DNA of 64,000 nt, from positions 62,001 through 126,000 of the forward strand of contig RYFE02000004.1 in the NCBI GenBank assembly GCA_004138175.2, read 5' to 3'. A model generated the notes under the pieces. It was not told the DNA's origin. It made no database searches and was given only the letters and a program-made list of their open reading frames with translations. This DNA comes from Chloroflexales bacterium ZM16-3 (GTDB lineage Bacteria > Chloroflexota > Chloroflexia > Chloroflexales > Chloroflexaceae). Position 1 is the first letter of the stretch. Each line of letters starts with the position of its first letter. Below are positions 8,479 to 32,320 of this stretch, piece after piece. Both the position numbers and the translations under genes were made by a program.

Positions 8479-8601
8479 GCAATACCGCAGAAGTAACCCT
8501 GTGAAGTGTTCTGTCATTCTGAGCGCAGCGAAGAATCCCGGCCGGGATTCTTCGCTGCGCTCAGCGTGACATGGGTGACAGGGTTACTTCTGCGGTATTG
8601 C
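8479..8601. mobile_element. MITE-like element, GAGCGCAGCGAAG hairpin type (copy 2)
   Basis: 123-bp element with perfect terminal inverted repeats GCAATACCGCAGAAGTAAC. Flanking direct repeats CGTGAAAG (8471-8478 and 8602-8609) are identical, extended by a further GC by coincidence. It differs from the 38551-38673 copy by two bases in 123, which implies recent activity. The duplicated target contains the GAAAGG that serves as ribosome binding site for the CheB-CheR gene at 8617. Confidence 0.88.
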
Positions 8602-8616
8602 CGTGAAAGGCTTTTG

Positions 8617-11600: not shown

Positions 11601-11634
11601 CGATATCACCGAGCGCCGAAACGCGCATGGCTGA
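8617..11634 (+). CDS. CheB-CheR-PAS chemotaxis-type fusion protein
   Basis: About 1005 residues. A proline-rich start is followed by a CheB methylesterase domain (about 40-230, S45 in GIGASAGG, D in SGTGSDG). Next is a CheR methyltransferase (about 245-510, SAM motif [15 protein letters not shown], catalytic-region SCRNLLIYL). A PAS-like region precedes a long coiled coil with repeated NEEL units (about 690-770), and two PAS domains follow (about 780-900 and 905-1000). It has no receiver and no kinase domain. Such fusions are common in environmental bacteria and usually work with PAS-rich kinases; the kinase at 11884 is the obvious partner. The frame opens inside the upstream element, but GAAAGG at 8605-8610 supports ATG 8617. 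Confidence 0.9.
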
Positions 11635-15416: not shown

Positions 15417-15434
15417 GCAAGGGTGAGAATATCT

Positions 15435-17324: not shown

Positions 17325-17325
17325 G

Positions 17326-17359
17326 GGGACAGGGGACAGGGGACAGGGGACAGCGACAG
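17326..17359. repeat. Heptamer array GGGACAG
   Basis: Four tandem 7-bp units GGGACAG plus a degenerate fifth, directly after the permease stop codon. The inverse unit CCCCTGT recurs at 51635-51653. Confidence 0.85.
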
Positions 17360-17361
17360 GC

Positions 17362-17724
17362 TTAGGATGGCAGGTTTTTTCGAAGGGATGTGAGCATCTT
17401 GCTGATCTCAGTGATCAAGGCGAACGCTGGCGCTGCGGTAGCATCATCAACATAACGAAATCGGTTTGCAAGCGACAGAAGCGTTTCAAGCTCCATCAGT
17501 GATCCTTGGGCAATAGCCAGGAACCGGCTGTATTCACGAGGCGTGGTGCGGTAATAGCCTTCGGCGATATTTGCCGGCACAGATACTGTGGCCCGCGACA
17601 TCTGCGATATTAGAGCATACTGCTCGTGACGAGGAAAGCGGGCGACCAGCCCGTAGATGTGTTCGGCGAGGTTCATGCTCTTCTGCCAGACAAATAGTTC
17701 ACGGTGCGATGAAATAGGCGTCAT
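17362..17724 (-). CDS. Four-helix bundle protein (S23 / rRNA intervening-sequence type)
   Basis: About 120 residues. It matches the four-helix bundle family first seen in 23S rRNA intervening sequences: LFVWQKSMNLAEHIY, then a FP-x5-Y-x-LISQMSRA segment, SVPANIAEGYYR, and FLAIAQGSLMELETLL. ATG 17724 has GGAG five bases upstream. Function is not established for the family; members are small oligomeric RNA/DNA-associated proteins, and the bAvd accessory proteins of diversity-generating retroelements belong here. There is no reverse transcriptase nearby. It lies on the opposite strand between the permease and its ATPase, bounded by two heptamer arrays, and so looks inserted. Confidence 0.88.
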   Translation of the reverse strand: MTPISSHRELFVWQKSMNLAEHIYGLVARFPRHEQYALISQMSRATVSVPANIAEGYYRTTPREYSRFLAIAQGSLMELETLLSLANRFRYVDDATAAPAFALITEISKMLTSLRKNLPS

Positions 17725-17822
17725 CATAGCTCCAATGGCTTGCAACTTACGGTACGATCTCGATTGATCACTTCTTGAACCGTATTAATCATCAGAATGT
17801 TACGGAGGCTGTTTATATGCTC

Positions 17823-17857
17823 TACCCTGTACCCTGTACCCTGTACCCTGTACCCTT
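17823..17857. repeat. Heptamer array ACCCTGT
   Basis: About five tandem 7-bp units (ACCCTGT repeated, last one ACCCTTA), ending exactly at the start codon of the Wzt-like gene, where a ribosome binding site would be expected. No Shine-Dalgarno is visible. Confidence 0.85.
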
Positions 17858-19084
17858 ATGACAGTTATTGAGTTCGAATCCGTATCCAAGCGCTTCATCC
17901 TGCATAAGGAGCGCCGCGACACCATCCAGGAGCGGGTGACTGGGATGTTCAGCCGCCGCCCCGCCGGCGAGGAGTTCTGGGCCGTGCGCGATGTGAGCTT
18001 CGCCGTCGAGCCGGGCCAGAGCCTTGGCCTGGTGGGCCATAACGGCGCAGGCAAGAGCACCGTCCTCAAGCTGATGACCCGCATCCTGGAGCCGACCAGC
18101 GGCCGCGTGCGTGCCAGCGGGCGGATCGCCGCCCTGCTGGAGCTGGGCAGCGGCTTCCACCCCGAGCTCTCCGGCCGCGAGAACGTCTTCCTCTACGGCT
18201 CGCTGATGGGCCTCGGCCGCGCCGAGATGGCCGCCAAGCTGCCCGAGATCGCCACCTTCGCCGATATCGGCGACTTCATCGACACCGAGATCAAGCACTA
18301 CTCCTCGGGCATGTACACCCGCCTGGCCTTCGCCGTGGCCACCGCCGTCGACCCCGACATCCTGATCACCGACGAGGTGCTGGCCGTTGGCGACGAGGCG
18401 TTCCAGCGCAAGTGCATGGAGCGCATCTACGGCTTCCGCCGGGCCGGTAAGACGATCATCTTCGTCTCGCACGCCCTGGAGGTGGTGCGCTCGCTCTGTG
18501 ATGTGGCCGTCTGGCTCGACCACGGCCAGATGAAGGCCAGCGGGAAGGCCGGCGAGGTGATCGACGCCTACCTGGCCGATGTGAACCGCCAGGAGCAGCG
18601 GCGGCTTGAGTCCGAGCGGGGCAGCGAGTCCGATGACGACATCAACCCCTTTCGCCGGGGCACGCGCGAGCTGGAGATCACCAGCGTCCAGCTGCTCAAT
18701 GAGTCCGGCGAGGAGTGCCCGGTCTTCCAGTCACACGCGCCGCTCACGGTGCGCATGCACTACTGCGCCCACGCCCTGATCGAGTCGCCCGTGTTTGGCG
18801 TCGGCATCCACCACGAGAGCGGGGCCTGGCTGATCGGGCCGAACACGGGCTTCGATGAGTTCCGCATCCCGCAGGTCGCGGGCGAGGGCTATGTGGACTA
18901 TCGCATCCCCGCGCTGCCCCTGCTTGGCGGCAGCTACCGGGTGAGCGTGGCCGCCGTGGATACGAGCCAGACCCACACCTATGATTCGCACGACCGGCTC
19001 TACCCGCTGGTGGTGCAGAGCAGCAGCATGCGCGAGCGCTACGGAATGCTCTCCGTACCCGGCTCGTGGGATTGGCGAGGGTGA
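17858..19084 (+). CDS. Polysaccharide ABC exporter ATPase (Wzt/TagH type) with C-terminal glycan-binding domain
   Basis: 408 residues. The ATPase domain (1-245) has Walker A GHNGAGKST, signature YSSGMYTRL, Walker B ILITDEVLAVGD and H-loop VSHALE, all typical of O-antigen/teichoic acid exporters. Residues about 270-405 form a beta-sandwich like the Wzt C-terminal domain, which recognises the terminal group of the polymer. The start abuts a heptamer array. The stop overlaps the methyltransferase start (TGATG). In Wzt systems a methyltransferase often caps the chain, which fits the next gene. Confidence 0.9.
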   Translation: MTVIEFESVSKRFILHKERRDTIQERVTGMFSRRPAGEEFWAVRDVSFAVEPGQSLGLVGHNGAGKSTVLKLMTRILEPTSGRVRASGRIAALLELGSGFHPELSGRENVFLYGSLMGLGRAEMAAKLPEIATFADIGDFIDTEIKHYSSGMYTRLAFAVATAVDPDILITDEVLAVGDEAFQRKCMERIYGFRRAGKTIIFVSHALEVVRSLCDVAVWLDHGQMKASGKAGEVIDAYLADVNRQEQRRLESERGSESDDDINPFRRGTRELEITSVQLLNESGEECPVFQSHAPLTVRMHYCAHALIESPVFGVGIHHESGAWLIGPNTGFDEFRIPQVAGEGYVDYRIPALPLLGGSYRVSVAAVDTSQTHTYDSHDRLYPLVVQSSSMRERYGMLSVPGSWDWRG

Positions 19085-19929
19085 TGATGACACTGCCAGG
19101 GGCCGGCGAGCTCTTCGACGCCAACTACTATGCTACCGGCTGCGGCATGCCCTACCGGCGTGACGCAGCCTGGATGGCCTTCTTTGGCGGCGTGGCCGAC
19201 CGTATCGTGGCCGAGATCGCGCCCGCCTCGGCGCTCGACGCCGGCTGCGCCATCGGCCTGCTGGTCGAGCAGTTGCGCGAGCGCGGCGTGGCCGCCGAGG
19301 GCGTGGATATCTCGGAGTATGCGATCGGCAGCGCCCACGAGTCGATCCGCGACCACGTGCGGGTCGGCTCAGTGGCCGAGCCCTTCGGCCATCGCTACGA
19401 CCTGATCGTCTGCATCGAGGTGCTGGAGCACATGCCCCGCGCCGCTGCCGAGGCGGCCGTGGCCAACTTCTGCGCCCACAGCGACGATGTGCTCTTCTCC
19501 TCGTCGCCCCTCGACCACAAGGAGGCGACCCACTTCAACGTCAACCCGCCCGAGTACTGGGCCTACCTCTTCGCCCAGCAGGGCTTCTTCCGCGATGTGG
19601 ACTTCGACGCGGGCTTCCTGACGCCATGGGCGGCCCGCTTCCGCCGCCGCGCCGAGCCTGCGGCGCGGGTGGTGCGCGACTACGAGCGACGCTTCTGGGA
19701 GCTCTGGCGGGCGAACAGCGACCTGCGCCAGTTGGCCCTGGAGCAGCGCGCCCAGATCGCCGCCGCCGACGCCCGCGCCGAGTCCGCCGACGAGTCCGCT
19801 ACCTACGCTCGCCGCCTTGAGGGCGAGCTGGCCGTACGCGACGCCCAGATCGCCCGCCTGACCGACCTGCTGCGCCGCATCGAGAACGGGCGGGTTATGC
19901 GCATCCTGCGGGCGATCACCCGGAGGTGA
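19084..19929 (+). CDS. SAM-dependent methyltransferase with coiled-coil tail
   Basis: About 281 residues. Class I methyltransferase fold with motif I ALDAGCAIG, acidic GVDISEYA and motif IV YDLIVCIEVLEHM, the last typical of methyltransferase 11/23-type enzymes. From about residue 200 the protein becomes a coiled coil with basic C-terminus (ENGRVMRILRAI). ATG 19084 overlaps the previous stop; an adjacent ATG at 19087 also fits GAGG at 19077-19080. Position next to the Wzt-like ATPase suggests methylation of a glycan, possibly as chain cap. Confidence 0.83.
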   Translation: MMTLPGAGELFDANYYATGCGMPYRRDAAWMAFFGGVADRIVAEIAPASALDAGCAIGLLVEQLRERGVAAEGVDISEYAIGSAHESIRDHVRVGSVAEPFGHRYDLIVCIEVLEHMPRAAAEAAVANFCAHSDDVLFSSSPLDHKEATHFNVNPPEYWAYLFAQQGFFRDVDFDAGFLTPWAARFRRRAEPAARVVRDYERRFWELWRANSDLRQLALEQRAQIAAADARAESADESATYARRLEGELAVRDAQIARLTDLLRRIENGRVMRILRAITRR

Positions 19930-20059: not shown

Positions 20060-21829
20060 ATGACAAACCTTCTGATCATCAGCCACGATGTGGTGGGGTC
20101 CCTCATGGCCGGGCCGGGGATCCGCTACTGGGAGCTGGCCCGTGCCCTGGCCGCCCACGCCCGCGTCACCCTGGTCGCCCCCCGGCCAATCGATATCGCC
20201 GCGCCCGGCGTGACGACAGGCAGCTACGCCTGGGGCGACGCCGCATCGCTGGCGGCCCACATCGCCCGTGCCGATGTGGCCCTGGTGAACGGCTATGTGT
20301 TCGAGGCCCACCCCGAGCTGGCCCATGCCGCCCCGGCCCTGATCATCGACCTCTACGACCCGACCCTGCTGGAGAACCTGGAGCTGCTCAAAACCGCCGA
20401 CAGCGCCGCGCGTGAGGCCCGCACCCGCCGCGATGTCGAGCTGCTGAACATGCAGATGGCCGCCGGCGACTTCTTCCTCTGCGCCACCGAGCGCCAGCGC
20501 GACCTCTATATCGGCGCGCTGATGGCGGCGGGCCGGATCACCCCCGCCCACACCGACGCTGACCCGCTGCTGCGCGGCTTGATCGAGGTGCTGCCGTTCG
20601 GATTACCCGCCGAGCCGCCCGCCCGCACTGGCCCCGCCATGCGCGGCGTGATCGCAGGCATCGGCCCCGACGACCCGATCATCCTCTGGAGCGGCGGCCT
20701 CTGGGACTGGATGGACCCCCAGACCCTGATCCGGGCCATGCCGGAGGTTGTGGCGCAGACCCCCAACGCCCGGCTGGTCTTCCTGGCCGGCAGGCACCCC
20801 GGCCAAGCCGGGGCGATGCGCACCCCCGATGCGGCTCGCGCCCTCGCCAAAGAGATTGGCCTGCTTGGTAGCCATATCTCCTTCTATGACTCGTGGGTAC
20901 ACTACGAGCGGCGCGCCGACTTCCTGCTTGAAGCGACGGTTGTGGTATCATTGCACCGCCAACACCTGGAGACAGCCTACGCCGCCCTGCGCTCGCGGGT
21001 GCTCGACCACCTGTGGGTCGGGCTGCCCAGCCTGCTCAGCGATGGCGATCAGGCAGCCGCCATGGCCCATGATCACGATATCGGCCTGGTGGTGCCACCC
21101 GAGGATGCCACCGCCGTGGCCGAGTCCCTGAAGGCGCTGCTGACCGATAAGACGCTGCGCGAGCGGATGGCCGCAAGCGCCCGCGCCATCGCGCCGCGCT
21201 TTGCGTGGCAGAGCCTTGTTCAGCCGATTGCTGCGTTTTTGGCCGCTGCGCCAACAGTCGCCCATCGAGATAGGATCAGCCGACCGATGGATGCACCACA
21301 GCCTGAGATCACGCCGATCACCGAGGATGTCGCCAAGGTCGAGCGTGAGCGCCTGCTGAGCGCCACGCGCAATGCCGCCATTCAATCCCTTGAGCATGGC
21401 TGGCGTCTCGATGGCCTGCGCGCCGCCGGCGGCGGGCGGCTGGCCAGGCTGCGCCGCGTGATCCAGGAGCGCCTGCTCTGGCCGCTGCTCCAGCCGCTGC
21501 TCGATCGCCAGCAGGAGCAGAACGCGGCCGTCCTGCGCGCGCTCTACGCCATGGCTGAGCAGGGCGACCACCGGCAGACCAACCTCGCCGCCAGCGGCCA
21601 GCGGGCCACCGCGCTTGGCGAGCATGCCCACCTACGCATCGACCACACGCTCCAGGGCCTTGCAGAGCTGAATGAGCGCAGCCTGCGCGAGCGCCACCTG
21701 CTCGCCCAGCAGCTGCGCGACCTCGCCGAGCAGATCGCTGGCCTTGAGGAGGCCGATATACAGACCCGCGCCCTGCTGCGCGGCGATCCGGTGCCGCCCC
21801 CCGCCACCCTGCCCACGGAGGCCGACTGA
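20060..21829 (+). CDS. GT-B glycosyltransferase with coiled-coil tail
   Basis: 589 residues. Residues 1-400 form a GT4-like glycosyltransferase: N-terminal LLIISHDVVGSLMAGPGIRY with the glycine-rich loop, central ILWSGGLWDWMDP, and a C-terminal nucleotide-sugar site region (DHLWVGLPSLLSDG, GLVVPPED). Residues about 460-589 are a separate tail starting LARLRRVIQERLLWP and continuing as coiled coil; the same start occurs in the proteins at 22836 and 31931. Overlaps the next gene by 1 bp. Probably adds a sugar to the exported glycan. Donor and acceptor unknown. Confidence 0.85.
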   Translation: MTNLLIISHDVVGSLMAGPGIRYWELARALAAHARVTLVAPRPIDIAAPGVTTGSYAWGDAASLAAHIARADVALVNGYVFEAHPELAHAAPALIIDLYDPTLLENLELLKTADSAAREARTRRDVELLNMQMAAGDFFLCATERQRDLYIGALMAAGRITPAHTDADPLLRGLIEVLPFGLPAEPPARTGPAMRGVIAGIGPDDPIILWSGGLWDWMDPQTLIRAMPEVVAQTPNARLVFLAGRHPGQAGAMRTPDAARALAKEIGLLGSHISFYDSWVHYERRADFLLEATVVVSLHRQHLETAYAALRSRVLDHLWVGLPSLLSDGDQAAAMAHDHDIGLVVPPEDATAVAESLKALLTDKTLRERMAASARAIAPRFAWQSLVQPIAAFLAAAPTVAHRDRISRPMDAPQPEITPITEDVAKVERERLLSATRNAAIQSLEHGWRLDGLRAAGGGRLARLRRVIQERLLWPLLQPLLDRQQEQNAAVLRALYAMAEQGDHRQTNLAASGQRATALGEHAHLRIDHTLQGLAELNERSLRERHLLAQQLRDLAEQIAGLEEADIQTRALLRGDPVPPPATLPTEAD

Positions 21830-22839
21830 TGCGCAGCGCGGTGATTGTGCTGACCTGGAACGCCGCCGACGCCGCCCTGAACTGTCTGGGCAGCCTCGCC
21901 GCCCTCGATCCCGCCGCCGACCAGATCGTCGTCGTCGATAACGGCTCCGCCGATGGTACTGCCGACCTTGTGGCCGGGCGTTTTCCATCTATCACCCTCA
22001 TTCGCAATGACCGAAATCTTGGCTTCTCCGGCGGCATGAATGTCGGCATCAGGGCGCTGCTGGCCCAGGATCAGCCCCCCGAGGCGATCATCCTGCTTAA
22101 CCAGGACACGCTGGTGGACGCGGGCTGGCTCGCGGCGCTCACCGCGCCCCTGGAGGCCGACCCGGCCATCGGCGCCGTCGGCTGCAAGATCCGCTACCCC
22201 GACGGCAGTCTCCAGCACGCTGGGGTGACGCTCGACTGGCCACGGGCCGTGGCCCACCATATCGGCTGGCACGAGGCCGACGTTGGCCAGCACGATGTGC
22301 CCCGCGACCTTGCGTTCATCACCGGGGCAGCTCTGGCTCTGCGAGTCGATGCCGTGGCCCGAGTCGGTCTGCTCGATGAGGGCTACGCGCCGGCCTACTT
22401 CGAGGATGTAGACCTCTGCTGGCGCATCCGGCGAGCTGGCTACCGTCTGCACTACGAGCCGCGCGCCACCCTGATCCATCAGGAGTCGCTGTCGCTGCGC
22501 GATGAGCTGACCCGCAGCGCCCACTACAACCGTGGCCGCATGCGCTTTGTGCTCAAGACCTATGCCCTCGCCGATCTGCTCGGGGCCTTCGCCGAGGCCG
22601 AGCGGGCCTTCATCCGCCAGCACGCCCACACCGCCGAGGGCCGCGCCCTGCGCTGGGCCTACGCTGGCTCCCTGGATGCTCTGCCGGACATCCTGGCCGC
22701 CCGCCGCGACCTCGGCGTCGACACGCCCGTTGATGCGCCAGATTCCATCCGTGACCTGCTTGTGGGCCTGCGCCGCGAACTGGCGCATACCCTGCGTCGC
22801 CGCGCCGCTTCCTGCGCTGACACCATCGCCTCCCTATGA
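21829..22839 (+). CDS. Family 2 glycosyltransferase (rhamnosyltransferase-like)
   Basis: 336 residues. GT-A fold, GT2 type: start SAVIVLTWNAADAALNCL, then IVVVDNGSADGT, NLGFSGGMNVGI, the DxD-like site in ILLNQDTLVD, and YFEDVDLCWRIRRAGY. This pattern is typical of rhamnosyl- and other deoxyhexosyltransferases acting on cell-surface chains. The start and stop overlap both neighbours (TGATG and ATGA), so translation is probably coupled in one operon. Confidence 0.9.
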   Translation: MRSAVIVLTWNAADAALNCLGSLAALDPAADQIVVVDNGSADGTADLVAGRFPSITLIRNDRNLGFSGGMNVGIRALLAQDQPPEAIILLNQDTLVDAGWLAALTAPLEADPAIGAVGCKIRYPDGSLQHAGVTLDWPRAVAHHIGWHEADVGQHDVPRDLAFITGAALALRVDAVARVGLLDEGYAPAYFEDVDLCWRIRRAGYRLHYEPRATLIHQESLSLRDELTRSAHYNRGRMRFVLKTYALADLLGAFAEAERAFIRQHAHTAEGRALRWAYAGSLDALPDILAARRDLGVDTPVDAPDSIRDLLVGLRRELAHTLRRRAASCADTIASL

Positions 22840-25800
22840 CACAGCCCTTCGCCGCGACGTACCGCCTGCATACAGCGCTTCCCGACCGGCTCTTCTGTGG
22901 TGAGCCGCTGCTGCTTGATGTCGAACTGCTGAATACCGGCCACGCCCCCTGGCTCACCGTCGGGGCCTTCCCGGTGCGCCTCGGCTACCGCTGGGTCGGC
23001 CCAGGCGGCGGCGTCACCGACGGCGGCCGCGCTCCGCTGCCCGCCCCCGTGCCCCCCGGTATGGGTGCCCGAATCGAGCTGCGCGTCGAGTCGCCGCCCG
23101 CCCCCGGCGGTTATCGTCTTCAGGTCGAGCTGGTTGAGGAGGGCCGGGCCTGGTTCAGCCAGCGCGGCCTGGCCCCCCTGACCATAGAGGTGGCGTATGC
23201 CCCTGCCGAAGCGCCCCGTGTCGCGATCATCAATGGCAATGTCGTCGCCAACGACGCCGTCGGCGGCCACATCGTGTCGCAGCTCTACGCCCTGCGGGCG
23301 GCCGGCTACCATACGATGGTGATCACCGAGTTCGTCGACTCGCGCCTGTCCGCCGACGCCCGCCGCTCGATGATGGTCGCTAACGCCGATGAGTTGCGCG
23401 ACCTGCATTCCGGCAACCTGGCCTCACACCACCTGCGCCAGGCCGACATCGTGATCGTCAACTACTCGACCTACTACGCTCTGGCTGAGATGATCCGCGA
23501 GGTGCGTCGCGGCGTCGTGATCTTCGACTACCACGGTGTCACCCCGCCCGAGCTGTGGGGTAAGGAGTGGCCCGGCTACGAGGATCTGGTGCGTGGCCGC
23601 GATAACCTGGGCCTGGTGCGCTATGCCGACTATGGCATCGGCCATAGCCGCTTCACCTGCGATGAGCTGGTGTCCACCGGCCAGATCGCCCCCGGCCGGG
23701 TCTCGCTGATGCCCTACGCTGTCGTCGAGCGCTCGGGCTACGCTGGCCCGCCCGACCCGGCGGTCGTCGAGCGCTTCGGGCTGGCCGGAAGACATGTGCT
23801 GCTCTACGTCGGCCGCATGGCCCGCAACAAGCGTGTGATCGATCTGGTTGAGGCGATGCCAGCCATCCTCGCCCAGCACCCGGCCGCCTGCCTGCTGCTC
23901 GTGGGCGAGGACCGCACGCCAGCCTACCGCGAGTACGCCGACGAGGTGCGCGCCCGCGCCGACGAGCTGGGTGTCACCGAGCGGGTAATCTTCACCGGCC
24001 AGGTCGACGACGCCACCCTGGAGAGTTGCTACCGCGCCTGCGCTGCCTTCGTCACCGCTAGCATCCACGAGGGATTCTGCATGCCCGTGGTCGAGGCGAT
24101 GTCGCGCGGGCGCCCGGTGGTCTCTGCCGATGCCACCGCTACCCCCGGCACCCTCGGCGGCGCCGGACTGCTCTTCCGCCCGCAAGACCCGGCCGGCCTA
24201 GCCGATCAGGTCTGCGCACTGCTCGACGGCCTTCCCGCGCCGGGCGACCACAGCGACCCGCTGGCGATCCACCAGACGCCCCCGGCTGATGCGGATGAGA
24301 TCGCTGCCATGCGTGTGCGGCCGATCGCGATTGTGACGCCGCGCTACGGCCCGCAGATCCTGGGCGGTGCCGAGACCGGCATGCGCAGCTGGGCCGAGCA
24401 GCTCGCCGCGCGTGGCTACCGGGTCGATGTCCTCACCACGGGCACCGTCGATATGGCCGACTGGAGCGACCACATCCCGCCCGGCGTAGAAGAGCTAAAC
24501 GGGGTGACGGTGCGCCGCTTCCACACCAGCAAGGTGGATGTTGGCATTTTCCACGGGCTGATGCAGCGGGCGAACCGGGGCGAGCGGCTGCGCTACCACG
24601 AGGAGCGGCGCTTTATGGCCAACAACCTGCGCAGCGCCGATCTGGAGCGCTACGTGGCCGAGCGCGCCGACGACTACGCCTGCCTGATCTACGCGCCCTA
24701 CCTCTTCGGCACCACCTACTGGCCCGCCAGTGCGGCCCCCGAGCGCTCGATCATCGTGCCCTGCCTCCACGACGAGCCCTCGGCGCACCTGGCCATGTTC
24801 CGCGAGCTGCTGGAGCGCAGCGCGGCGCTCTTCTTTAACGCCGATGCTGAGGGCACCCTGGCCTCGGTCGGCATGGGGGTGGCGAACCCCTACCGGGCCA
24901 GCCTTGGCTTCGGCTTCGCCGACCACGCGCCCTCTGGCGATGCGGCGCGCTTTCGGGAGCGCACGGGCATCGCCGGGCCGATGCTGCTCTACAGCGGGCG
25001 GCTAGAGGCGGCCAAGAATGTGCCCTTGCTGATTGAGTGGTTCACCCGCTACAAGTCCGAGCGTCCCGGCCCTCTGGCTCTGGCCCTCACCGGCGGCGGC
25101 AGCGCGGCCCTGCCCGAGCGGCCCGATGTGCTTGCCCTGGGCATGCTCAGCCGTGAGGAGCTGACCGACGCCTACGCCGTATGCACCGCGATCTGCCAGC
25201 CCTCGCTCAACGAGAGCTTCTCGATCGTAATCATGGAGGCATGGCTCCAGGGCCGCCCGGCGATTGTCCACGCGGGCTGCGCCGTCACGAGCGAGCACGT
25301 GGGGCAGAGCGGCGGCGGCTACGCGCCCGGCAGCTACGAGCAGTTCCGCGACGCCCTCGACGCGCTGCTGGCCGACCCGGCCCACGCCGACGATCTGGGG
25401 GCGCGCGGGCGGGCCTATGTCCAGGAGCGCTACAGCTGGGGCCGCCTGCTGCCCCGGATCGAGGCCGCCATCGCCGCCTTCAGCCGGCCGCGTCCGCTCT
25501 ACGCCCGCCTGGCCCAGCGCGGGGTGGCCCGCGCGCTCGACTTCACCCGCAGCCGCTTCGACGACGCCCTGCTGGAGCTGGTGTCCCGCGCCGAGGCTGA
25601 CCTGCCCGCCAGCCTGGCCGTCGCCCGGCGAGGCAACCTGCACCGCGCTGCCGAGATCGCCCGCCCTGGCTACGCCGTGCGCTCTGACATCCCTCTGATC
25701 GGCCCGGCCGTTGCCTGGCTGCGCCGCCAGCTCACCTCTCATATCAAGGAGCCCTACCTCGACCCGATGATCGCCGAGCAGGATCGCTTTAACCGCGACC

Positions 25801-25919
25801 TCCTCGATACCCTGCTGCCCGCCCTGGATGAGAGCCTGCGCGAGCAGCGCCGCCTGCGCGCCGAGATCGACCTGCTGCGCGAGCGGATACCTCGTCACGA
25901 TGCGGAGAATGGATCCTGA
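22836..25919 (+). CDS. Double GT4 glycosyltransferase with N-terminal beta-sandwich
   Basis: 1027 residues. Residues 1-118 form an Ig-like beta-sandwich (DVELLNTGHAPW, GYRLQVELVEEG) that recalls Wzt-type glycan-binding domains. Two complete GT-B enzymes follow. The first (about 125-480) has LLYVGRMARNKRVIDL and the E-x7-E site HEGFCMPVVEAMSRG. The second (about 490-870) has GGAETGMRSWAEQLAARGY, LLYSGRLEAAKNVPLL and NESFSIVIMEAWLQG. The tail (about 875-1027) contains VAWLRRQLTSHIKEPYLDPM and a coiled coil. Two active sites in one chain suggest consecutive sugar additions. Confidence 0.87.
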   Translation: MTQPFAATYRLHTALPDRLFCGEPLLLDVELLNTGHAPWLTVGAFPVRLGYRWVGPGGGVTDGGRAPLPAPVPPGMGARIELRVESPPAPGGYRLQVELVEEGRAWFSQRGLAPLTIEVAYAPAEAPRVAIINGNVVANDAVGGHIVSQLYALRAAGYHTMVITEFVDSRLSADARRSMMVANADELRDLHSGNLASHHLRQADIVIVNYSTYYALAEMIREVRRGVVIFDYHGVTPPELWGKEWPGYEDLVRGRDNLGLVRYADYGIGHSRFTCDELVSTGQIAPGRVSLMPYAVVERSGYAGPPDPAVVERFGLAGRHVLLYVGRMARNKRVIDLVEAMPAILAQHPAACLLLVGEDRTPAYREYADEVRARADELGVTERVIFTGQVDDATLESCYRACAAFVTASIHEGFCMPVVEAMSRGRPVVSADATATPGTLGGAGLLFRPQDPAGLADQVCALLDGLPAPGDHSDPLAIHQTPPADADEIAAMRVRPIAIVTPRYGPQILGGAETGMRSWAEQLAARGYRVDVLTTGTVDMADWSDHIPPGVEELNGVTVRRFHTSKVDVGIFHGLMQRANRGERLRYHEERRFMANNLRSADLERYVAERADDYACLIYAPYLFGTTYWPASAAPERSIIVPCLHDEPSAHLAMFRELLERSAALFFNADAEGTLASVGMGVANPYRASLGFGFADHAPSGDAARFRERTGIAGPMLLYSGRLEAAKNVPLLIEWFTRYKSERPGPLALALTGGGSAALPERPDVLALGMLSREELTDAYAVCTAICQPSLNESFSIVIMEAWLQGRPAIVHAGCAVTSEHVGQSGGGYAPGSYEQFRDALDALLADPAHADDLGARGRAYVQERYSWGRLLPRIEAAIAAFSRPRPLYARLAQRGVARALDFTRSRFDDALLELVSRAEADLPASLAVARRGNLHRAAEIARPGYAVRSDIPLIGPAVAWLRRQLTSHIKEPYLDPMIAEQDRFNRDLLDTLLPALDESLREQRRLRAEIDLLRERIPRHDAENGS

Positions 25920-28228
25920 TGATACGCAACGCCCGAATGCATCCTCAAATCTACGTTGCACTGACAAATCTGGTGCGCAGCGGCCTTCTGTGGCCAGCAC
26001 TCCTCGCGATTGTCATGCTCTCGGCATATGCGATGCAGGCTCCACGCACGATCACGTTTCGTATCGATGACCCAGGTTTCTACTGGGACTTCAATGATAT
26101 TGAGCATGACTCTGCTGGCCAGATGTTTCGCTGGATGGGGCAGACTGGGCACCTAAATGTGCCGCGCATCACCACGGCCCCCCAGATCGTTACGGTTGTC
26201 CTAGAGAATGTCCGCCCTGACCATGCGCCGGTGGCACTACAGATCAGCCAGGATATCAGCACCACACTGACGATCCCCCCCGGAAGACGAGTCTATACGC
26301 TCCTCCAGCCCGCATCGCCTGCCCCGACCTCAGATGGGCTCACCCTCACCGCCTCAACCTTTCACCCTTCTGGTGATAGACGCGAGCTAAGCCTGGTCAT
26401 CCGCTCTGCCATGCTGAATCCGCTTGGCGATGCACTGCCCTGGTGGTCGATCACGGCGGTCGGACTGCTAACCCAGGTTCTGCTGCTGGCTCTAATATTC
26501 CGCATGTATCGTGCGCCGACGCCACTTCTTGTTTTGGCCGTCATAGCGATCCCGCTCCAAGTTGGACTGCACCTCAACGCTGGCTATGATGGGGGCACAG
26601 CTCGCTTCGTCTGGATCTGGGTTGCCCTGATCTTTACTGGGTATATCATCCAGGCTCTTGGGTTCCGTGAACCTCGACTCGTGATCACGCTGCGCCGCTG
26701 GCAGCGTTCCGATTATATGTTGGCAGCCGGGCTCGCGCTAAGCGGCGCAGTCCTGCGTATAGCCCTAATACCATACCAGATCCCGCTGCTGAATGGCGAC
26801 GACTACCTCACTGCCAGCTATGCGGTTGGCATCCTTAAGGGGCAGCAGTCGCTCTACTACGGCCATCATACTGGCACGATAGCCTCCTATCTCCTCGCAC
26901 CGATCTTCGCGGTGGGTGGCATCTCGACGGTCACCATGCTGCTGCTACCGATCCTGCTCACCGCAATGCTTACGGTTGCCCTCTACGGGATCGGCTGTGA
27001 TTTTGCGGGGAGGTGGGGCGGCGTGGCGTCCGCACTATGGATCGCTCTGCCCCCGGCAACACCCCTTTGGTGGACGATGAAGCCGCAGCCGGGCTACCTT
27101 GAGGCGATCACCTTTGCCGCTCTAGCGCTGTGGCTAACCCTGCGTCTCTTCTATGGCAGCTACAGCCCGCGCCATATGCTCTGGCTTATGGTGGCAAGCG
27201 TGCTATGCGCCGTGCTGGCGCTTTGGGCTGGTATCGTGACGATCTCGGCGCTGCTCGTCTGCGGCATGATCGCGCTGATCCGCTGGCGTCGACTCGTACA
27301 ACTCCCCGCTATCGGCTATGCGTTGTCTCTAATGATCGGGCTGCTCCTGGCGATCCCCACGGGAATCTATATTGTCACGCGCCCAGGCGATAATCCCCTC
27401 TGGTGGACATTCGGTAGGCATATCCGTGGCTTGCCCCCTACCGAGGGATTTGTGGGCCTGATCACGCAGTTGCTTCCGCTCGTTCTCGGTGTGCGGCCCC
27501 CGTCAATGCTTGTGCATGGGAGCAGCGCCATAGGCTATGCACTCTGGTGGGTTGCGGGAGTGACCTTCTTCTACGTGCTCGTGCGCGCCATCTGGATCTC
27601 GATGCCTGCGCTGATATCCCTCGTCTTCGTCCTGAACATCACGGCTATGTTTTGCTTCAGCTCGTTCAACACACTCCTCTATGACGCTCGCTATGTCTTG
27701 CCCCTCTATGTTGCCTACCCACTGCTGATCGCACTGTTCGTCGGCGCTATCTCACGTATGCACGCCATATGGGCCACGCTATTTCTCACGCTCCTCACAA
27801 TGGTCAATATCTTGGGCGGGGTCGCTGTGTTCTACAATAGCATCAACCCATCCCTCCAGCGTGAGGAGACGCTTGTTTCGCGCGCTCTGCTCGACAATGG
27901 CATAACGTATGTCTACACATCCTACTGGATCGGCCAGCCGCTGATGATCGAGAGCGGCGGATTGGTCACGGCTTCAGCCATGATCGGCCCCACACGAACA
28001 TTCTACGACGAGCGTGTCGAGCATGCGGTGCTTGCCGCAGACCAGTCGCAGGTCGCCTTTGTGATTCGCCGCAATAGTGTAATCGACGTGCCCTTTTCCC
28101 GCTACCTCGTTGAACATGGCACTACATGCCAACGCGATCAGGTTGGCAGTATGCTGATCTACTCGCGGTGCTTGCCCTTCCCGAACCTCAATGATATGCA
28201 GCAGTCGTTGCCCGATGGCTCCGGCTAA
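25919..28228 (+). CDS. Multispanning membrane protein, GT-C glycosyltransferase-like
   Basis: 769 residues. One membrane helix near 20-40 is followed by an extracytoplasmic beta-rich stretch (about 45-165) and then some 11-12 membrane helices. The first loop of the main membrane part has LLNGDDYLTASYAVG, resembling the acidic motif of GT-C (ArnT/PMT-like) enzymes that use lipid-linked sugars. The C-terminal 90 residues are soluble. Codon use is visibly more mixed (more A/T third positions) than in the upstream glycosyltransferases, a hint of separate origin, though its start overlaps the previous stop. Sugar transfer on the outer face is inferred. Confidence 0.72.
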   Translation: MIRNARMHPQIYVALTNLVRSGLLWPALLAIVMLSAYAMQAPRTITFRIDDPGFYWDFNDIEHDSAGQMFRWMGQTGHLNVPRITTAPQIVTVVLENVRPDHAPVALQISQDISTTLTIPPGRRVYTLLQPASPAPTSDGLTLTASTFHPSGDRRELSLVIRSAMLNPLGDALPWWSITAVGLLTQVLLLALIFRMYRAPTPLLVLAVIAIPLQVGLHLNAGYDGGTARFVWIWVALIFTGYIIQALGFREPRLVITLRRWQRSDYMLAAGLALSGAVLRIALIPYQIPLLNGDDYLTASYAVGILKGQQSLYYGHHTGTIASYLLAPIFAVGGISTVTMLLLPILLTAMLTVALYGIGCDFAGRWGGVASALWIALPPATPLWWTMKPQPGYLEAITFAALALWLTLRLFYGSYSPRHMLWLMVASVLCAVLALWAGIVTISALLVCGMIALIRWRRLVQLPAIGYALSLMIGLLLAIPTGIYIVTRPGDNPLWWTFGRHIRGLPPTEGFVGLITQLLPLVLGVRPPSMLVHGSSAIGYALWWVAGVTFFYVLVRAIWISMPALISLVFVLNITAMFCFSSFNTLLYDARYVLPLYVAYPLLIALFVGAISRMHAIWATLFLTLLTMVNILGGVAVFYNSINPSLQREETLVSRALLDNGITYVYTSYWIGQPLMIESGGLVTASAMIGPTRTFYDERVEHAVLAADQSQVAFVIRRNSVIDVPFSRYLVEHGTTCQRDQVGSMLIYSRCLPFPNLNDMQQSLPDGSG

Positions 28229-28543
28229 ACATGTCCTGCCACTCCCGCGTGAGGGTTTAGGGGCGAGCTCGCGAGCCGCCTCAGCGCGCCCAGGCATTTG
28301 CCCCCGCACCGAGAAACCTCGTTCGCTACGTTCATCATTGCGCTGTTTTGGCAGTGCCCCTTTATGACCGACATGGTAATCTCCCCGTAACGAGAGAGGC
28401 ATATTCTCATTACAGTTAGGCTTCTTTGCCCTCACCGAGACGCCCAAAACTGCCTGAACTGTATAGCAGAGGTATCCGCAGACGTAGCGCCGCTCTAAGA
28501 GCGTCACTACCTTATGATGATGTCCGCATCACCACACCCTCCT
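28229..28543. other. Gene-free spacer, nothing recognised
   Basis: About 315 bp between the GT-C-like gene and the secreted FG-GAP protein. I find no convincing open frame, no tandem repeat and no strong hairpin. Composition is mixed. Any promoter for the downstream gene should lie here, but I cannot place one. Confidence 0.5.
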
Positions 28544-30535
28544 ATGATGTATGCTTACCGACGCAGCACCACGGCCCTGATCGCCCTCGCCATCATCGCT
28601 ACAACCCTGGCGTTTATCACACCCACGCATGCCGGCGCTCGCGATCAGCCTGACCCATTGCCGGGCTGGACTCACTCGCCTAGATACCCCGACGACACCT
28701 CGGATCGCCATGGCCTCGTGCTCTCGGGCGGTCGCATTGAGGCGGGCTCGCCGGTGATCGCCGAGGTAGATGGCAACACCGCCAATGGTCAAGAGGTGGT
28801 GATCGGTGGTAGCGATGGTCGGCTCTACGCCTACCACGCTAACGGCACACTGCTCTGGCAGAAGGATGTGCCCAATGTCGGCTGTGCGTCCGGGGTTTCG
28901 CTGATCAACAGCAAGCCATCGGTTGGCGCGATCTTTGGCGGATCTACACCCTATGTCCTGATAGGCTACGGCGCTATGGTGGGTACCAACCGCGCATGCG
29001 ATGGTGGTGTGGTGGCATACAGAGGTACCGACGGCCAGATGGCCTGGAACTTCAGCCAGCGCACCTACGACGACACCGTTACCCCCGAGGGACCTGAGGC
29101 ACTTTACGGTGTGATCACCACGCCGGCCCTTGGCGACGCCGACGGCGACGGCACCCTAGAGGTGGCCTTCGGCGGCCTCGACCGAAACCTCTACATGCTC
29201 AACAGCGACGGCTCGGTGCGCTGGTACTACCACGCCGCAGACACGATCTGGGCGACGCCGCTGTTTATGAACATCGACAGCGATGCTGCACTTGAGCTGA
29301 TTGCCCCCACCGATATCTCGGCCAACCCAAATATCATCCCGCCTACCTCAGACGGTGGATTCATCCACGCCTTCAACACACAGCAGCGCTCGCCAGCCCG
29401 CATTCCCTTTCAGACAGGCTACATCTGGCGCACCGTATTCGACCAGGTAATCTTCTCATCGCCTCTGGCCGCTGACGTGCTCTCCAGCAACCCTGGCGAG
29501 GAGATCGCCGTTGGCTCCGGCTGCTACTTCCCGACCTCTAGCACCGACAAGCGCGGCAAGTGGATCAAGATCCTGCGCCCCTCTGACGGAACTGTGCTCC
29601 AGACCCTCAATGCCCCGACCTGCGTCCAGTCTTCGCCGGCAGTGGGCGATATCGACGACGATGGCGAGTTGGAGATTGTGGCTACTGTTAGTGGCGATGC
29701 CTCGATTGGCGGCGACGGGAAGAGTGACATTGTTGCCTGGGACCCGACCAACCCTACCCCGAAGTGGTCGACCTCGACCGGCGACCCGAACTCGGGATCG
29801 AACGACACGTTCGGCGGCGACCGCCAGTCGGCGGTGATCGCTGACCTGGACGGTAACGGATCGCTTGAGGTGATCGCGGCAAACTTCTGGTCGGTCCACG
29901 TGCTGCGCGGCAAAGACGGTGTGCCGCTGACCTGCCAGAGCCCGAGCTGTGGCGACCAGATCTCGCTCTTCGCCTGGGGGACGCTGAAGTCGACCCCGGC
30001 GGTGGGCGACATCAATGGCGACGGCAAGCTCGACCTGGTGATCGGTGGTATGAATATCTCGAACTCGTCCCATGGGCACCTCTACGCCTGGACTGACTTC
30101 GCCGGTGTTCTGGGCAGCTCGGCAGGCAAGCAGCCGGCCTATAGCGCGCCCTGGCCACAGCTCCGCCGCGATGCAAAGGCCACAGGCACCTTCAGCGAGC
30201 CGGGGATCTCTGTCTCCACCAAGAGCCTGGGTACGTTGATCGAAACGAACGACACCCGCGCCATCTCCCTCCCCATTAACTCGGCGGACGGCACCCAGAT
30301 TAGCTGGACGGCCTCCGTCTCCAGCGATGCCAATGGTATTGTCACGCTTACCAAGGCCAGCGGATCGTCTGGCGATGCTGTACAGTTCACGCTTGACAGC
30401 AGCAACCTGGCGAATGGCACCTATACCGCTAGCCTGACGGTTGCATCACCTCAGCTATCTAGCATAGATATTAGTTTGAGTCTGATCGTCGTCGACACCG
30501 TGTACTATGTGTACACGCCGCTCATCGTTCGCTAG
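28544..30535 (+). CDS. Secreted FG-GAP/VCBS beta-propeller protein
   Basis: About 663 residues. Signal peptide (RRSTTALIALAIIATTLAF, cleavage probably near THAGA). The body (about 50-540) has repeated DxDxDG-type calcium loops within beta-propeller blades: DADGDGTLEVAFGG, DIDDDGELEIV, DLDGNGSLEVIAANF, DINGDGKLDLVIGG. The last 110 residues form an Ig/BACON-like beta domain, ending in YYVYTPLIVR. No SD is visible at any of the clustered ATGs, so the start is chosen for the signal peptide. Probably a surface-bound adhesion or glycan-interacting protein. Confidence 0.82.
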   Translation: MMYAYRRSTTALIALAIIATTLAFITPTHAGARDQPDPLPGWTHSPRYPDDTSDRHGLVLSGGRIEAGSPVIAEVDGNTANGQEVVIGGSDGRLYAYHANGTLLWQKDVPNVGCASGVSLINSKPSVGAIFGGSTPYVLIGYGAMVGTNRACDGGVVAYRGTDGQMAWNFSQRTYDDTVTPEGPEALYGVITTPALGDADGDGTLEVAFGGLDRNLYMLNSDGSVRWYYHAADTIWATPLFMNIDSDAALELIAPTDISANPNIIPPTSDGGFIHAFNTQQRSPARIPFQTGYIWRTVFDQVIFSSPLAADVLSSNPGEEIAVGSGCYFPTSSTDKRGKWIKILRPSDGTVLQTLNAPTCVQSSPAVGDIDDDGELEIVATVSGDASIGGDGKSDIVAWDPTNPTPKWSTSTGDPNSGSNDTFGGDRQSAVIADLDGNGSLEVIAANFWSVHVLRGKDGVPLTCQSPSCGDQISLFAWGTLKSTPAVGDINGDGKLDLVIGGMNISNSSHGHLYAWTDFAGVLGSSAGKQPAYSAPWPQLRRDAKATGTFSEPGISVSTKSLGTLIETNDTRAISLPINSADGTQISWTASVSSDANGIVTLTKASGSSGDAVQFTLDSSNLANGTYTASLTVASPQLSSIDISLSLIVVDTVYYVYTPLIVR

Positions 30536-30564
30536 GGCGCGCAGCGCCTTCTGGCAGGTAGTAC

Positions 30565-30611
30565 AGCAGAAAAGCCTCGTCGGCCACAGTGGTCGGCGAG
30601 GCTTTTCTGCT
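30565..30611 (+). terminator. Intrinsic terminator-like hairpin
   Basis: Arms AGCAGAAAAGCCTCG (30565-30579) and CGAGGCTTTTCTGCT (30597-30611) with inner CGGCC/GGTCGG pairs. It follows the secreted-protein gene. The A-run in the left arm and T-run in the right arm fit a bidirectional terminator. Confidence 0.75.
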
Positions 30612-30616
30612 ATAAT
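30608..30616 (+). promoter_or_regulatory. Extended -10 promoter for the epimerase gene
   Basis: TGCTATAAT, a perfect extended -10 (TGn then TATAAT), overlaps the end of the terminator hairpin. No good -35 is visible, as expected for extended -10 promoters. Transcription would start near 30623, about 30 nt before the ATG at 30653. Confidence 0.6.
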
Positions 30617-30652
30617 GCCGCCCGATGCCATTGCCCCATAGGAAACCTGAGC

Positions 30653-31675
30653 ATGAATCATCTCATCACCGGCGGTGCCGGTTTTATTGGCTGTAACCTC
30701 GCGGACGCCCTGCTCTCACGCGGCGAGCAGGTGACGATCTTCGATAACCTGAGCCGCCCACGCACCGACCTCAACCTGAAGTGGCTCCAACAGCGCCATA
30801 GCGCACGCCTGCGTTTTATACAGGCCGATATCCGCGATGCCGAGGCGGTCGCCGCCGCTGTCCCTGGCCACGAGACGATCTTTCACCTGGCCAGCCAGGT
30901 CGCCGTCACCACCTCGGTGAAGAACCCGCGCACGGACTTTGAGATCAATGCCCTCGGAAGCCTGAACGTCCTTGAGGCCGCTCGCTTGGCCGCCCGCCCG
31001 CCGGCTGTCTTCTACGCATCGACCAACAAGGTCTATGGCGGCATGGAGGACGTGACGGTGGTGGAGCAGGCCACCCGCTACGCCTACCGCGACATGCCCG
31101 AGGGCGTACATGAGAGTCACCTGCTCGACTTCCACTCGCCATACGGCTGTTCAAAGGGGTCTGCTGATCAATATGTGCGCGACTACGCCCGCATCTATGG
31201 CCTGCAGACGGTGGTGTTCCGCCAGGGGTGCATCTACGGCCCGCGCCAGATGGGCGTCGAGGACCAGGGCTGGGCCGCGCACTTTGTGATCGCCGCCGTG
31301 ATGGGCCGCCCGGTCACGATCTATGGCGACGGCAAGCAGGTGCGCGATATGCTCTTTATCGATGACCTTGTGGCGGCCTACCTGTCCGCCCTAGAGCGCA
31401 TCAACACGGTCTCTGGGCGGATCTACAACATCGGCGGAGGCCCGACCAACGCGCTCTCGATCTGGGCCGAGTTTGGCCCGCTGCTGGAGCGGCTCACCGG
31501 CAACCGGATCGATGTGCTCCGTGGCGACTGGCGCCCCGGCGACCAGTCGGTCTATATCAGTGCGATCACGAAGGCCGAGCGGGATCTGGGCTGGCGCCCT
31601 CAGGTGTCGGTTGAGGAGGGAATCGCCCGGCTGGTGGCCTGGGTTCAGCAGAACCGTGATCTGTTCGAGAAATAG
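30653..31675 (+). CDS. NAD-dependent epimerase, CDP-paratose 2-epimerase-like SDR
   Basis: 340 residues, usual length for the family. Rossmann motif TGGAGFIG at the N-terminus; NAD-binding HLASQVAV; active-site Y-x3-K in SPYGCSKGSADQYV with the upstream STNKVYG; CIYGPRQMGVEDQGW and NIGGGPTNALS near the C-terminus. This set is characteristic of CDP-tyvelose/CDP-paratose 2-epimerases, which make a 3,6-dideoxyhexose; related UDP-sugar 4-epimerases are the alternative. It probably supplies a nucleotide sugar for the glycosyltransferases nearby. It has its own promoter (30608) and is followed by a hairpin. Confidence 0.85.
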   Translation: MNHLITGGAGFIGCNLADALLSRGEQVTIFDNLSRPRTDLNLKWLQQRHSARLRFIQADIRDAEAVAAAVPGHETIFHLASQVAVTTSVKNPRTDFEINALGSLNVLEAARLAARPPAVFYASTNKVYGGMEDVTVVEQATRYAYRDMPEGVHESHLLDFHSPYGCSKGSADQYVRDYARIYGLQTVVFRQGCIYGPRQMGVEDQGWAAHFVIAAVMGRPVTIYGDGKQVRDMLFIDDLVAAYLSALERINTVSGRIYNIGGGPTNALSIWAEFGPLLERLTGNRIDVLRGDWRPGDQSVYISAITKAERDLGWRPQVSVEEGIARLVAWVQQNRDLFEK

Positions 31676-31696
31676 GGCTGCGGCCTAGACCTATGT

Positions 31697-31739
31697 ATTT
31701 GTCGGGTGGTGATGGCTTCGCCATCACCACCCGACAAAT
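31697..31739. repeat. Hairpin with 19-bp perfect stem
   Basis: Arms 31697-31715 and 31721-31739 (ATTTGTCGGGTGGTGATGG and complement) with loop CTTCG, 20 bp after the epimerase stop. A likely transcription barrier. It abuts the left end of the MITE-like element that follows. Confidence 0.75.
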
Positions 31740-31881
31740 TACCGCAGAAGGAACCCTGTGCGACGCCGCCCGCCGGGGGCTGAAGCCCCCGGCTCAGGCT
31801 ACGAAGGCCGCTGAAGCGGCCTGTCTGAGCCCGTTTACGGGCCGGGCGCTTAGGGTGACAGGGTTCCTTCTGCGCTACTGC
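31737..31881. mobile_element. MITE-like element, GCTGAAGCGGCC hairpin type (copy 3)
   Basis: About 145 bp. Left end ACCGCAGAAGGAACCCTGT, right end ACAGGGTTCCTTCTGCGC. The extreme left 5-6 bases differ from consensus, where the preceding hairpin adjoins, and no target duplication is visible. The interior carries GGGGGCTGAAGCCCCC, GAAGGCCGCTGAAGCGGCC and GCCCGTTTACGGGC palindromes. Confidence 0.7.
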
Positions 31882-31893
31882 AATTAAAGATAT

Positions 31894-31918
31894 GTGGGGA
31901 GAGCGCTGCTCTCCCCAC
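31894..31918. repeat. GTGGGGAGAGC hairpin
   Basis: Perfect 11-bp stem with 3-nt loop, just upstream of the small gene at 31931. It resembles the left half-element type of the terminator-like repeat family (CCCCACACCCCGCAC follows). Confidence 0.55.
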
Positions 31919-31930
31919 ACCCCGCACGCT

Positions 31931-32320
31931 ATGACAGGCAACAGCCCGATCTTCCTGGTGCCCGAGGCCGAGGGCGAGCCGCTGCTGGCCGCCGTCGAGC
32001 GCGGGCTGCGCGATGGTGGCGCCGACCTCTCTACGCTGCCCACGCTTGGTGGCTTGGCTCAGGACGACCCCTTTTTCGCCGAGCAGATGGCTGGCCTGCA
32101 CCAGGGCTGGGAGATCCGCCCGGGGCCGGCGCACGGCCCGCTGGCTCGCCTGCGCACGCGGCTGGCATGGTGGCTACTCGGCCCCGAGCTGGCCCAGGCC
32201 AGCGCCACCCACGCCGCCCTGGTGCGGGTGATCGACAGCCTCACCTCTCACCTCGACAGCGAGCGCGCCGCCCGCGCCCGCCTGGAGGCCCGCCTCGCCG
32301 CCCTGGAGCGCCCGCGATGA
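31931..32320 (+). CDS. Small protein with LR-x9-P tail and coiled coil
   Basis: About 129 residues, no known enzyme domain. Residues 1-65 are unrecognised. Residues about 69-129 begin LARLRTRLAWWLLGPELAQA and continue as coiled coil ending LEARLAALERPR. That start matches, without gaps, the tails of the glycosyltransferases at 20060 and 22836. It overlaps the next glycosyltransferase by 4 bp (ATGA), so it is translationally coupled. I infer an accessory or docking subunit of a glycosyltransferase complex. The frame is open from 31892, but ATG 31931 follows the hairpin and fits better. Confidence 0.65.
   Translation: MTGNSPIFLVPEAEGEPLLAAVERGLRDGGADLSTLPTLGGLAQDDPFFAEQMAGLHQGWEIRPGPAHGPLARLRTRLAWWLLGPELAQASATHAALVRVIDSLTSHLDSERAARARLEARLAALERPR

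Follow-up and report, generated by a model that had tools for sequence, protein, structure and literature searches.

To our knowledge, only in a few model systems is it understood how soluble surface-glycan glycosyltransferases are recruited to the membrane and to one another. Docking domains, by comparison, pair the ends of consecutive subunits of modular synthases. For WbdD of Escherichia coli O9a and its relatives, two accounts describe a coiled-coil, non-catalytic end, away from the methyltransferase, by which the polymerase is recruited and in which an amphipathic membrane helix lies (PMC11231755, PMC3482155), and a third account describes Alg14/Alg13 and EpsE/EpsF, in which a non-catalytic membrane anchor is either separate from or fused to the catalytic glycosyltransferase subunit (PMC4973528). 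Here, a helical module of ∼66 residues is described from a 64,000-nucleotide stretch of Chloroflexales bacterium ZM16-3 (contig RYFE02000004.1, positions 62,001 to 126,000), referred to as the window. Two GT4 glycosyltransferases of a glycan cluster, P0006 and P0008, carry the module at the C-terminal end, and it makes up most of a small protein, P0012, encoded directly upstream of another GT4 enzyme, P0013 (GT4b). The module is real and, judged from sequence, is an unnamed helical element common to many sugar-polymer enzymes of at least two bacterial phyla, which either form one protein with it or have it as a small partner made separately; it may keep such enzymes together at the membrane.

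Comparison with the described systems reveals likenesses and differences. The closest approach to WbdD/WbdA is seen in Paenibacillus, where module, spacer and methyltransferase occur in one protein beside wzm-like, wzt-like and GT4 genes. Unlike in WbdD, however, the module lies N-terminal of the methyltransferase, so that the order is reversed, the spacer between the two is not clearly coiled coil, and the module is found also on GT4, GT2 and small proteins; the likeness is one of architecture. Pfam detected no WbdD-type methyltransferase or kinase domain in the three window carriers, whereas the module-methyltransferases elsewhere do have the methyltransferase. The small protein and GT4b, which occur split or fused, recall Alg14/Alg13 and EpsE/EpsF, but the anchor and catalytic parts of those proteins correspond to the two halves of MurG, whereas GT4b alone matches GT4 models and its partner is predicted to be helical. 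Consistent with this, no Alg14-type anchor with half a glycosyltransferase fold was recognised in the small protein, the model of which has three helices and no strand (mean predicted local distance difference test score, pLDDT, 72), and no glycosyltransferase family was matched. As with modular-synthase docking domains, small homologous helices are present on different enzymes of one pathway; a pairing specificity like theirs would be putative for the module.

Homology and register of the module

The first copy of the module spans residues ∼448-515 of P0006 (21401..21604, +; profile match), a GT4 glycosyltransferase in which a longer helical tail accompanies the C-terminal module (20060..21829, +; Pfam PF13692/PF00534 and iterated profile). 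The second spans residues ∼946-1011 of P0008 (25671..25868, +; profile match), a protein with two GT4 domains and a C-terminal module (22836..25919, +; PF13692, in two stretches), and the third, which is 4 residues shorter, spans residues ∼60-123 of the small protein (32108..32299, +; profile match, with the register taken from profile alignment). The small protein itself (31931..32320, +), a member of a class of 17 open reading frames (ORFs), comprises 129 amino acids, with ∼59 N-terminal residues followed by the module and a coil. The suggestion in the preliminary description that it might be the module alone is thus correct for most of its length but does not account for the N-terminal residues. 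No catalytic domain was found in it, Pfam giving only a below-cut-off match to the coiled-coil family DUF7310 (17.4 bits versus 40), and NCBIfam and PHROGs gave no family match. The GT2 glycosyltransferase encoded between the two larger carriers (21829..22839, +; Pfam PF00535) has no match to the iterated module profile.

Profile comparison establishes that the tails of P0006, P0008 and the small protein are homologous copies of one module. A profile built from the three tails and iterated over the window and 40 stretches from relatives gave 58, 66, 68 and 68 matches at E < 1e-5 in successive rounds. As a guard against circularity, four class profiles were built separately from GT4x2-type tails (n = 15), GT4a-type tails, i.e. 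GT4 tails other than the GT4x2 type (n = 17), small proteins (n = 17, that of the window included) and RWYINP-type proteins (n = 68). At E < 1e-3, the GT4a profile detected 5 of 15 GT4x2 tails, 12 of 17 small proteins and all 68 RWYINP proteins, while its matches to the 13,822 ORFs not belonging to the family set numbered five, all of them to GT4a homologues; the GT4x2, small-protein and RWYINP profiles matched none of these outside ORFs at the same threshold. In the reverse direction the small-protein profile was weaker, recovering 0/17 GT4a, 0/15 GT4x2 and 5/68 RWYINP sequences. Alignment of the profiles with hhalign gave 95.4% for GT4x2-GT4a, 95.1% for GT4a-small, 97.0% for GT4x2-RWYINP, 98.1% for GT4a-RWYINP and 47.9% for small-RWYINP. 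A direct link between the GT4x2 tails and the small proteins was sought and failed (1.5% by hhalign; 0/17 small proteins detected by the GT4x2 profile at E < 1e-3, and 0/15 in reverse), hence the kinship of the small protein with P0008 is transitive, via the GT4a and RWYINP classes. A further result of 61/61 matches at E ≤ 1 is not counted as evidence, as weak coil matches are among them.

The three tails quoted in the preliminary description were located in the proteins encoded at 20060-21829, 22836-25919 and 31931-32320, and the idea of a mobile tail module common to these proteins is borne out by the class profiles, built apart from one another. The register proposed for them, however, was wrong. 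The tails had been aligned without gaps, with L4, R5 and P15 fixed; in the profile alignment of GT4a tails with small proteins, LARLRRVIQERLLWPLLQP on the P0006 side is opposite LARLRT----RLAWWLLGP, the version of the window's small protein, so that the homology of L4 and R5 extends to all three tails whereas P15 of the small protein is displaced by a 4-residue gap. The proline of LLGP in the small protein pairs instead with the second proline (P19) of both glycosyltransferase tails (LLQP / YLDP / LLGP), and this second proline is, from the alignments, the conserved proline of the module. The conserved proline and a Q/N core were both recovered, with the small protein having histidine at the N position and not retaining the double Q.

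The motif LR-x9-P was likewise too weak to serve as proof. The ungapped triple is the highest-scoring 20-column triple in the three tails (score 68, versus a shuffle mean of 52.0 with a standard deviation of 7.3), but since 7 of 200 shuffles reach this score, it constitutes marginal evidence when taken alone. LR-x9-P was considered as a diagnostic motif and rejected as non-specific, since a six-frame translation of the window contains it 96 times; among the 12 cluster proteins it matches four times, at the three tails and at one additional position within the small protein.

Carriers, spread and gene neighbours

The distribution of the module was examined in 121 stretches, comprising the window, the 40 stretches from relatives and 80 named loci, the latter being the best 80 of 97 relatives retrieved with a narrower alignment as contig-search query. 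Broader alignments had been tried as queries and contained no conserved stretch. Because the named loci were fetched with the narrower alignment, they are biased to the RWYINP type. With a broad profile at E ≤ 1e-4, 156 ORFs match in these stretches, and the module is C-terminal on GT4 in 33, C-terminal on GT2 in 8 and ahead of a GT4 domain in 3, with 112 others. Catalytic domains in this set were assigned by local profiles and in part checked with Pfam, including three of the GT2 carriers; the local methyltransferase profile was poor, such that the 112 others include 13 methyltransferases, and this category is superseded by a table of 99 stand-alone module ORFs. The search for further members therefore found many, in the phylum of the window and beyond, which answers the possibility that the three tails had no further kin.

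In 13 proteins the module precedes a methyltransferase, separated from it by a spacer of 62-200 residues (four were checked with Pfam), and in five further proteins from the phylum of Paenibacillus the module is likewise N-terminal of a methyltransferase, while an FkbM methyltransferase at locus L057 (5831-6889) has the module at its C-terminal end. One Paenibacillus locus has the order manC-like gene, two GDP-mannose-dehydratase-family genes, wzm-like gene, wzt with a Wzt_C domain, module-methyltransferase and three GT4 genes. The preliminary description spoke of unrelated catalytic domains carrying the same tail. This does not apply within the window, where both enzymes are GT4 (PF13692, PF00534), but it does hold elsewhere, given the GT2, FkbM methyltransferase and Methyltransf_23 carriers. 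BLASTP of full-length P0006 against full-length P0008 gave 0.006, and P0006, P0008 and P0013 all match Pfam Glycos_transf_1 or Glyco_trans_1_4 above cut-off.

Genomes were sampled from the phylum of the window (251) and from that of Paenibacillus (299), and the module was detected at E ≤ 1e-3 in at least 37 of the former and at least 7 of the latter, the seven including the Paenibacillus genome at the centre of the sample; both counts are lower bounds because, at most, the best 20-24 candidates were scored per genome. Herpetosiphon aurantiacus, Chloroflexus islandicus and three Paenibacillus species are among the named carriers. In Deltaproteobacteria bacterium Smac51, a hypothetical protein has a methyltransferase domain preceded by a module that matches more weakly (RWYINP profile, 4.1e-6 at Z = 4000; broad profile, 0.048; no match with the other three profiles), and its gene sits between two glycosyltransferase genes, near gmd. 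The three module genes of a record labelled Woesearchaeota (L113) recur in a Thermoflexales record (L114), and L113 is probably misbinned.

Existing family collections gave no credible match to the module: the best of the Pfam matches to 36 module sequences was 0.0056, spread over 12 families, none with more than two members; NCBIfam, searched with nine proteins, gave over the module weak coil-type overlaps only (best 0.0085, far below cut-off); PHROGs, searched with the three window proteins, and solved structures in the Protein Data Bank (best 0.39) likewise yielded nothing credible. No published description naming the module was found in the literature searches, which does not prove that there is none.

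Stand-alone module proteins are numerous, and some have two copies. The genome of the window itself encodes one on another contig (C51; L033:1264-2043), which has 260 residues and two modules in tandem; relatives of this protein, e.g. in L182, L177 and L178, are followed by a GT4 gene. The stand-alone ORFs were analysed with respect to the following gene, defined as the longest stop-to-stop ORF of at least 200 codons on the same strand with a start between −450 and +250 bases from the stop. Among the 99 ORFs, which include the L057 FkbM methyltransferase (353 amino acids) and the near-duplicates L113/L114, 93 have such a neighbour, and it is a GT4 in 82. None of these 82 GT4s has the module (0/82), as compared with 36 of 259 GT4 ORFs overall, and for control genes from these stretches the next gene is a GT4 in 114 of 663 cases. 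The 14 listed module-methyltransferases, one of which (L056 6522) is a GT4 protein, have a next gene in 13 cases, and it is a GT4 in 13/13.

In the small-protein class a GT4 comes next in 12 of 17 cases, and in L058 the ORFs that follow the small gene are pieces of a GT4b. In the window, the stop codon of the small gene overlaps the start of the gene for P0013 (32317..33396, +; Pfam PF00534) in an ATGA sequence, and GT4b is the presumed partner of the small protein in view of fusions in three genomes. In L072 and L073 the small protein and GT4b are encoded as one, without an intervening stop (506 and 522 codons from stop to stop), with a proline-rich linker between them. In L071 (517 codons, to the contig end) the module and the part downstream of it are in frame with GT4b, the part before the module being unlike the N-terminal part of the small protein. 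A GT4b-type domain also occurs behind GT2 sequence, with two GT2 domains by eye, in L059:1060-4113 and L073:11041-13986, in both cases beside a stand-alone module protein.

Predicted structure and possible role

Structural models of single chains were obtained with AlphaFold2. For P0008 residues 890-1027, one helix of 69 residues (956-1024) is predicted (mean pLDDT 76.5, 78-98 in the helix blocks; predicted template modelling score, pTM, 0.42), while the model of the small protein has a 57-residue helix besides two shorter ones (mean pLDDT 72.0, pTM 0.38). The earlier claim that the tails continue as coiled coil is made plausible by these unbroken predicted helices of 57 and 69 residues and by a strong heptad bias in P0006 residues 527-561 (0.70 versus 0.12), the bias in residues 499-533 being weak. 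Across 179 module copies, the best 18-residue helix has a median membrane-helix discriminant of 1.79; the corresponding values are 0.43 in GT4 segments, 0.72 in the stretch that follows the module and 1.02 in modules after shuffling. The best helix of the module is thus more basic and amphipathic than the controls across the family. In P0006 the discriminant reaches 1.97, and basic and W/Y residues are conserved in the RWY..P core.

The favoured reading, at somewhat under an even chance, is that the module is an assembly helix, probably on the membrane side, which is supplied to glycosyltransferases in cis or in trans. The first half, a basic helix with aromatic residues, approximately [WY]x[LIV]...P..G......[KR]....[RW]WY..P, would probably rest on the inner face of the cytoplasmic membrane. 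The second half (QQ..[FH]N..[VL].R.[LM]) continues unbroken into a helix that would probably pair with helices of partner proteins. In cis, surface-glycan enzymes such as those encoded at 20060 and 22836 would bear their own module; in trans, a separate module protein encoded just upstream, as the small protein at 31931 is for the GT4 at 32317, would provide it. In either arrangement the module would recruit the enzymes to the membrane and to partners, feasibly in the setting of glycan assembly for ABC (ATP-binding cassette) export. Such work would be akin to that of the non-catalytic end of WbdD, with its membrane helix and its recruitment of the polymerase, or to that of the anchor Alg14. 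In favour of this reading are the homology between separately built classes, the mobility of the module over different carriers, the stand-alone module genes that precede module-less GT4s, the fusions with GT4b, the P0008 orthologues that lack the tail, the basic and amphipathic character of the helix and the gene order of the Paenibacillus locus.

Several observations weigh against the assembly-helix interpretation. Part of the P0006 tail (residues 499-533) and the spacer of the Paenibacillus methyltransferase (0.33 versus 0.20) have weak heptad bias, and two of the window copies have moderate membrane-helix scores (1.02-1.35 in P0008, 1.22 in the small protein). The neighbour counts are not independent, since the loci are related, GT4-rich and selected by the module. 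In family f4 the small gene of L060, L061, L063 and L065 has no adjoining GT4, the next gene being something else in L060, L063 and L065 and a qualifying neighbour being absent in L061. Some P0008 orthologues manage without the tail, namely L062, L064 and L077, as their alignment to P0008 stops at residue 922 or earlier. A Herpetosiphon pair of module protein and GT4 is found among genes other than those of a glycan cluster; of the 121 stretches, many of which are short, only a minority contain exporter genes (Wzt-like in 20, Wzm-like in 15); and interaction, localisation and complex formation are inferred from sequence.

Four other explanations were weighed. The preliminary description envisaged a docking module that gathers the glycosyltransferases, i.e. 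the modules of P0006, P0008 and the small protein would bind one another as a hetero-coil in one complex for which membrane contact is not needed. Three module copies in the window cluster, and four each in L057 and L073, speak for such a hub, as do the unbroken predicted helices, the heptad-biased portion of the P0006 tail and the precedent of WbdD, in which a non-catalytic helical region recruits the polymerase (PMC3482155). It is nevertheless rather doubtful, given that the commonest arrangement is one module protein with one GT4, in Herpetosiphon even outside a glycan cluster, that the module matches of G042, which consists of one contig, are far apart, and that coil pairing leaves the basic, aromatic first half unexplained. 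Read from sequence, the neighbour pattern and fusions are at least as suggestive of a cis or trans partner, or an anchor, for individual GT4s as they are of a hub for all the glycosyltransferases. A plain anchor, in which an in-plane amphipathic helix holds its own enzyme at the membrane without a specific partner, and GT4b is anchored via the N-terminal part or the coil of the small protein, would fit the elevated helical discriminant across the family and the conserved basic and W/Y residues of the RWY..P core. The conserved QQ..FN and its downstream helix exceed the needs of an anchor, however, and two window copies score only moderately, so that this explanation, too, is considered unlikely.

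A molecular ruler, with the module as the fixed end and a spacer that sets glycan chain length as in coiled-coil terminators, is improbable. The succession of module, 62-200-residue spacer and methyltransferase in 13 proteins, with adjoining wzm-/wzt-like genes in Paenibacillus, would suit this idea, but the window modules are on GT4s and the small protein with no catalytic domain after the module, the methyltransferase of the cluster (encoded at 19066) has no module match, and the heptad bias of the Paenibacillus spacer is weak. Chance or low-complexity likeness between coiled-coil tails can be almost entirely discounted: the three-residue motif alone is near chance level (7/200 shuffles) and the GT4x2 and small-protein profiles do not match each other directly, yet among the 13,822 outside ORFs three class profiles gave no match at E < 1e-3 and the GT4a profile gave only five, all GT4a homologues.

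A broader form of the assembly-helix proposal is possible though doubtful: the module could be an exchangeable, unnamed plug for glycan-building enzymes of different folds (GT4, GT2 and two kinds of methyltransferase) in several phyla, with module-less GT4s being given a dedicated small plug protein. Were this the case, the membrane-bound assembly line of a cluster could be read from the genome by its plug carriers. What appears to be new is that a non-catalytic part for the assembly of glycan machines should have an unusual cis/trans distribution, and no family model for it was found. The marking of partners by a conserved module, together with fusions that name the small protein/GT4b pair, would make the question of recruitment testable in Chloroflexota and Paenibacillus, and would supply a family model for regions that have none and a name for many unnamed small proteins.

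The glycan cluster and other genes of the window

Upstream of P0006, a Wzm-like permease (15423-17324, +; PF01061) and a Wzt-like ATPase (17858-19084, +) are likely, from their sequences, to constitute the ABC glycan exporter of the cluster (15423..19084, +). The ATPase was identified by its match (E < 1e-30) to the L149 stretch, whose only such gene has ABC_tran and Wzt_C domains, and not by a Pfam scan of its own. Approximately 370 residues of the permease before the ABC2 domain have no Pfam match, and a fused periplasmic domain is possible; orthologous permease ORFs in L043, L049 and L050 are of similar length (642 codons).

The following gene encodes an S-adenosylmethionine-dependent methyltransferase (19066..19929, +; PF13489) with a heptad-biased tail (0.44 versus 0.10) and a basic C-terminus, to which the iterated module profile has no match. 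By position it is a candidate chain terminator. Its basic C-terminal stretch is ENGRVMRILRAITRR, and the order methyltransferase, coil, basic end is WbdD-like, without the module.

Within the cluster, positions 28514-30535 encode a repeat protein, secreted-looking by eye, that has >50% identity to sequences in seven fetched loci (L041, L043, L044, L049, L050, L054 and L056). Upstream of the cluster, a 1042-residue protein (8506-11634) fuses CheB, CheR and PAS, and a protein encoded on the reverse strand at 4044-6293 (−) combines ABC2-type permease domains with a SpoIIM domain.

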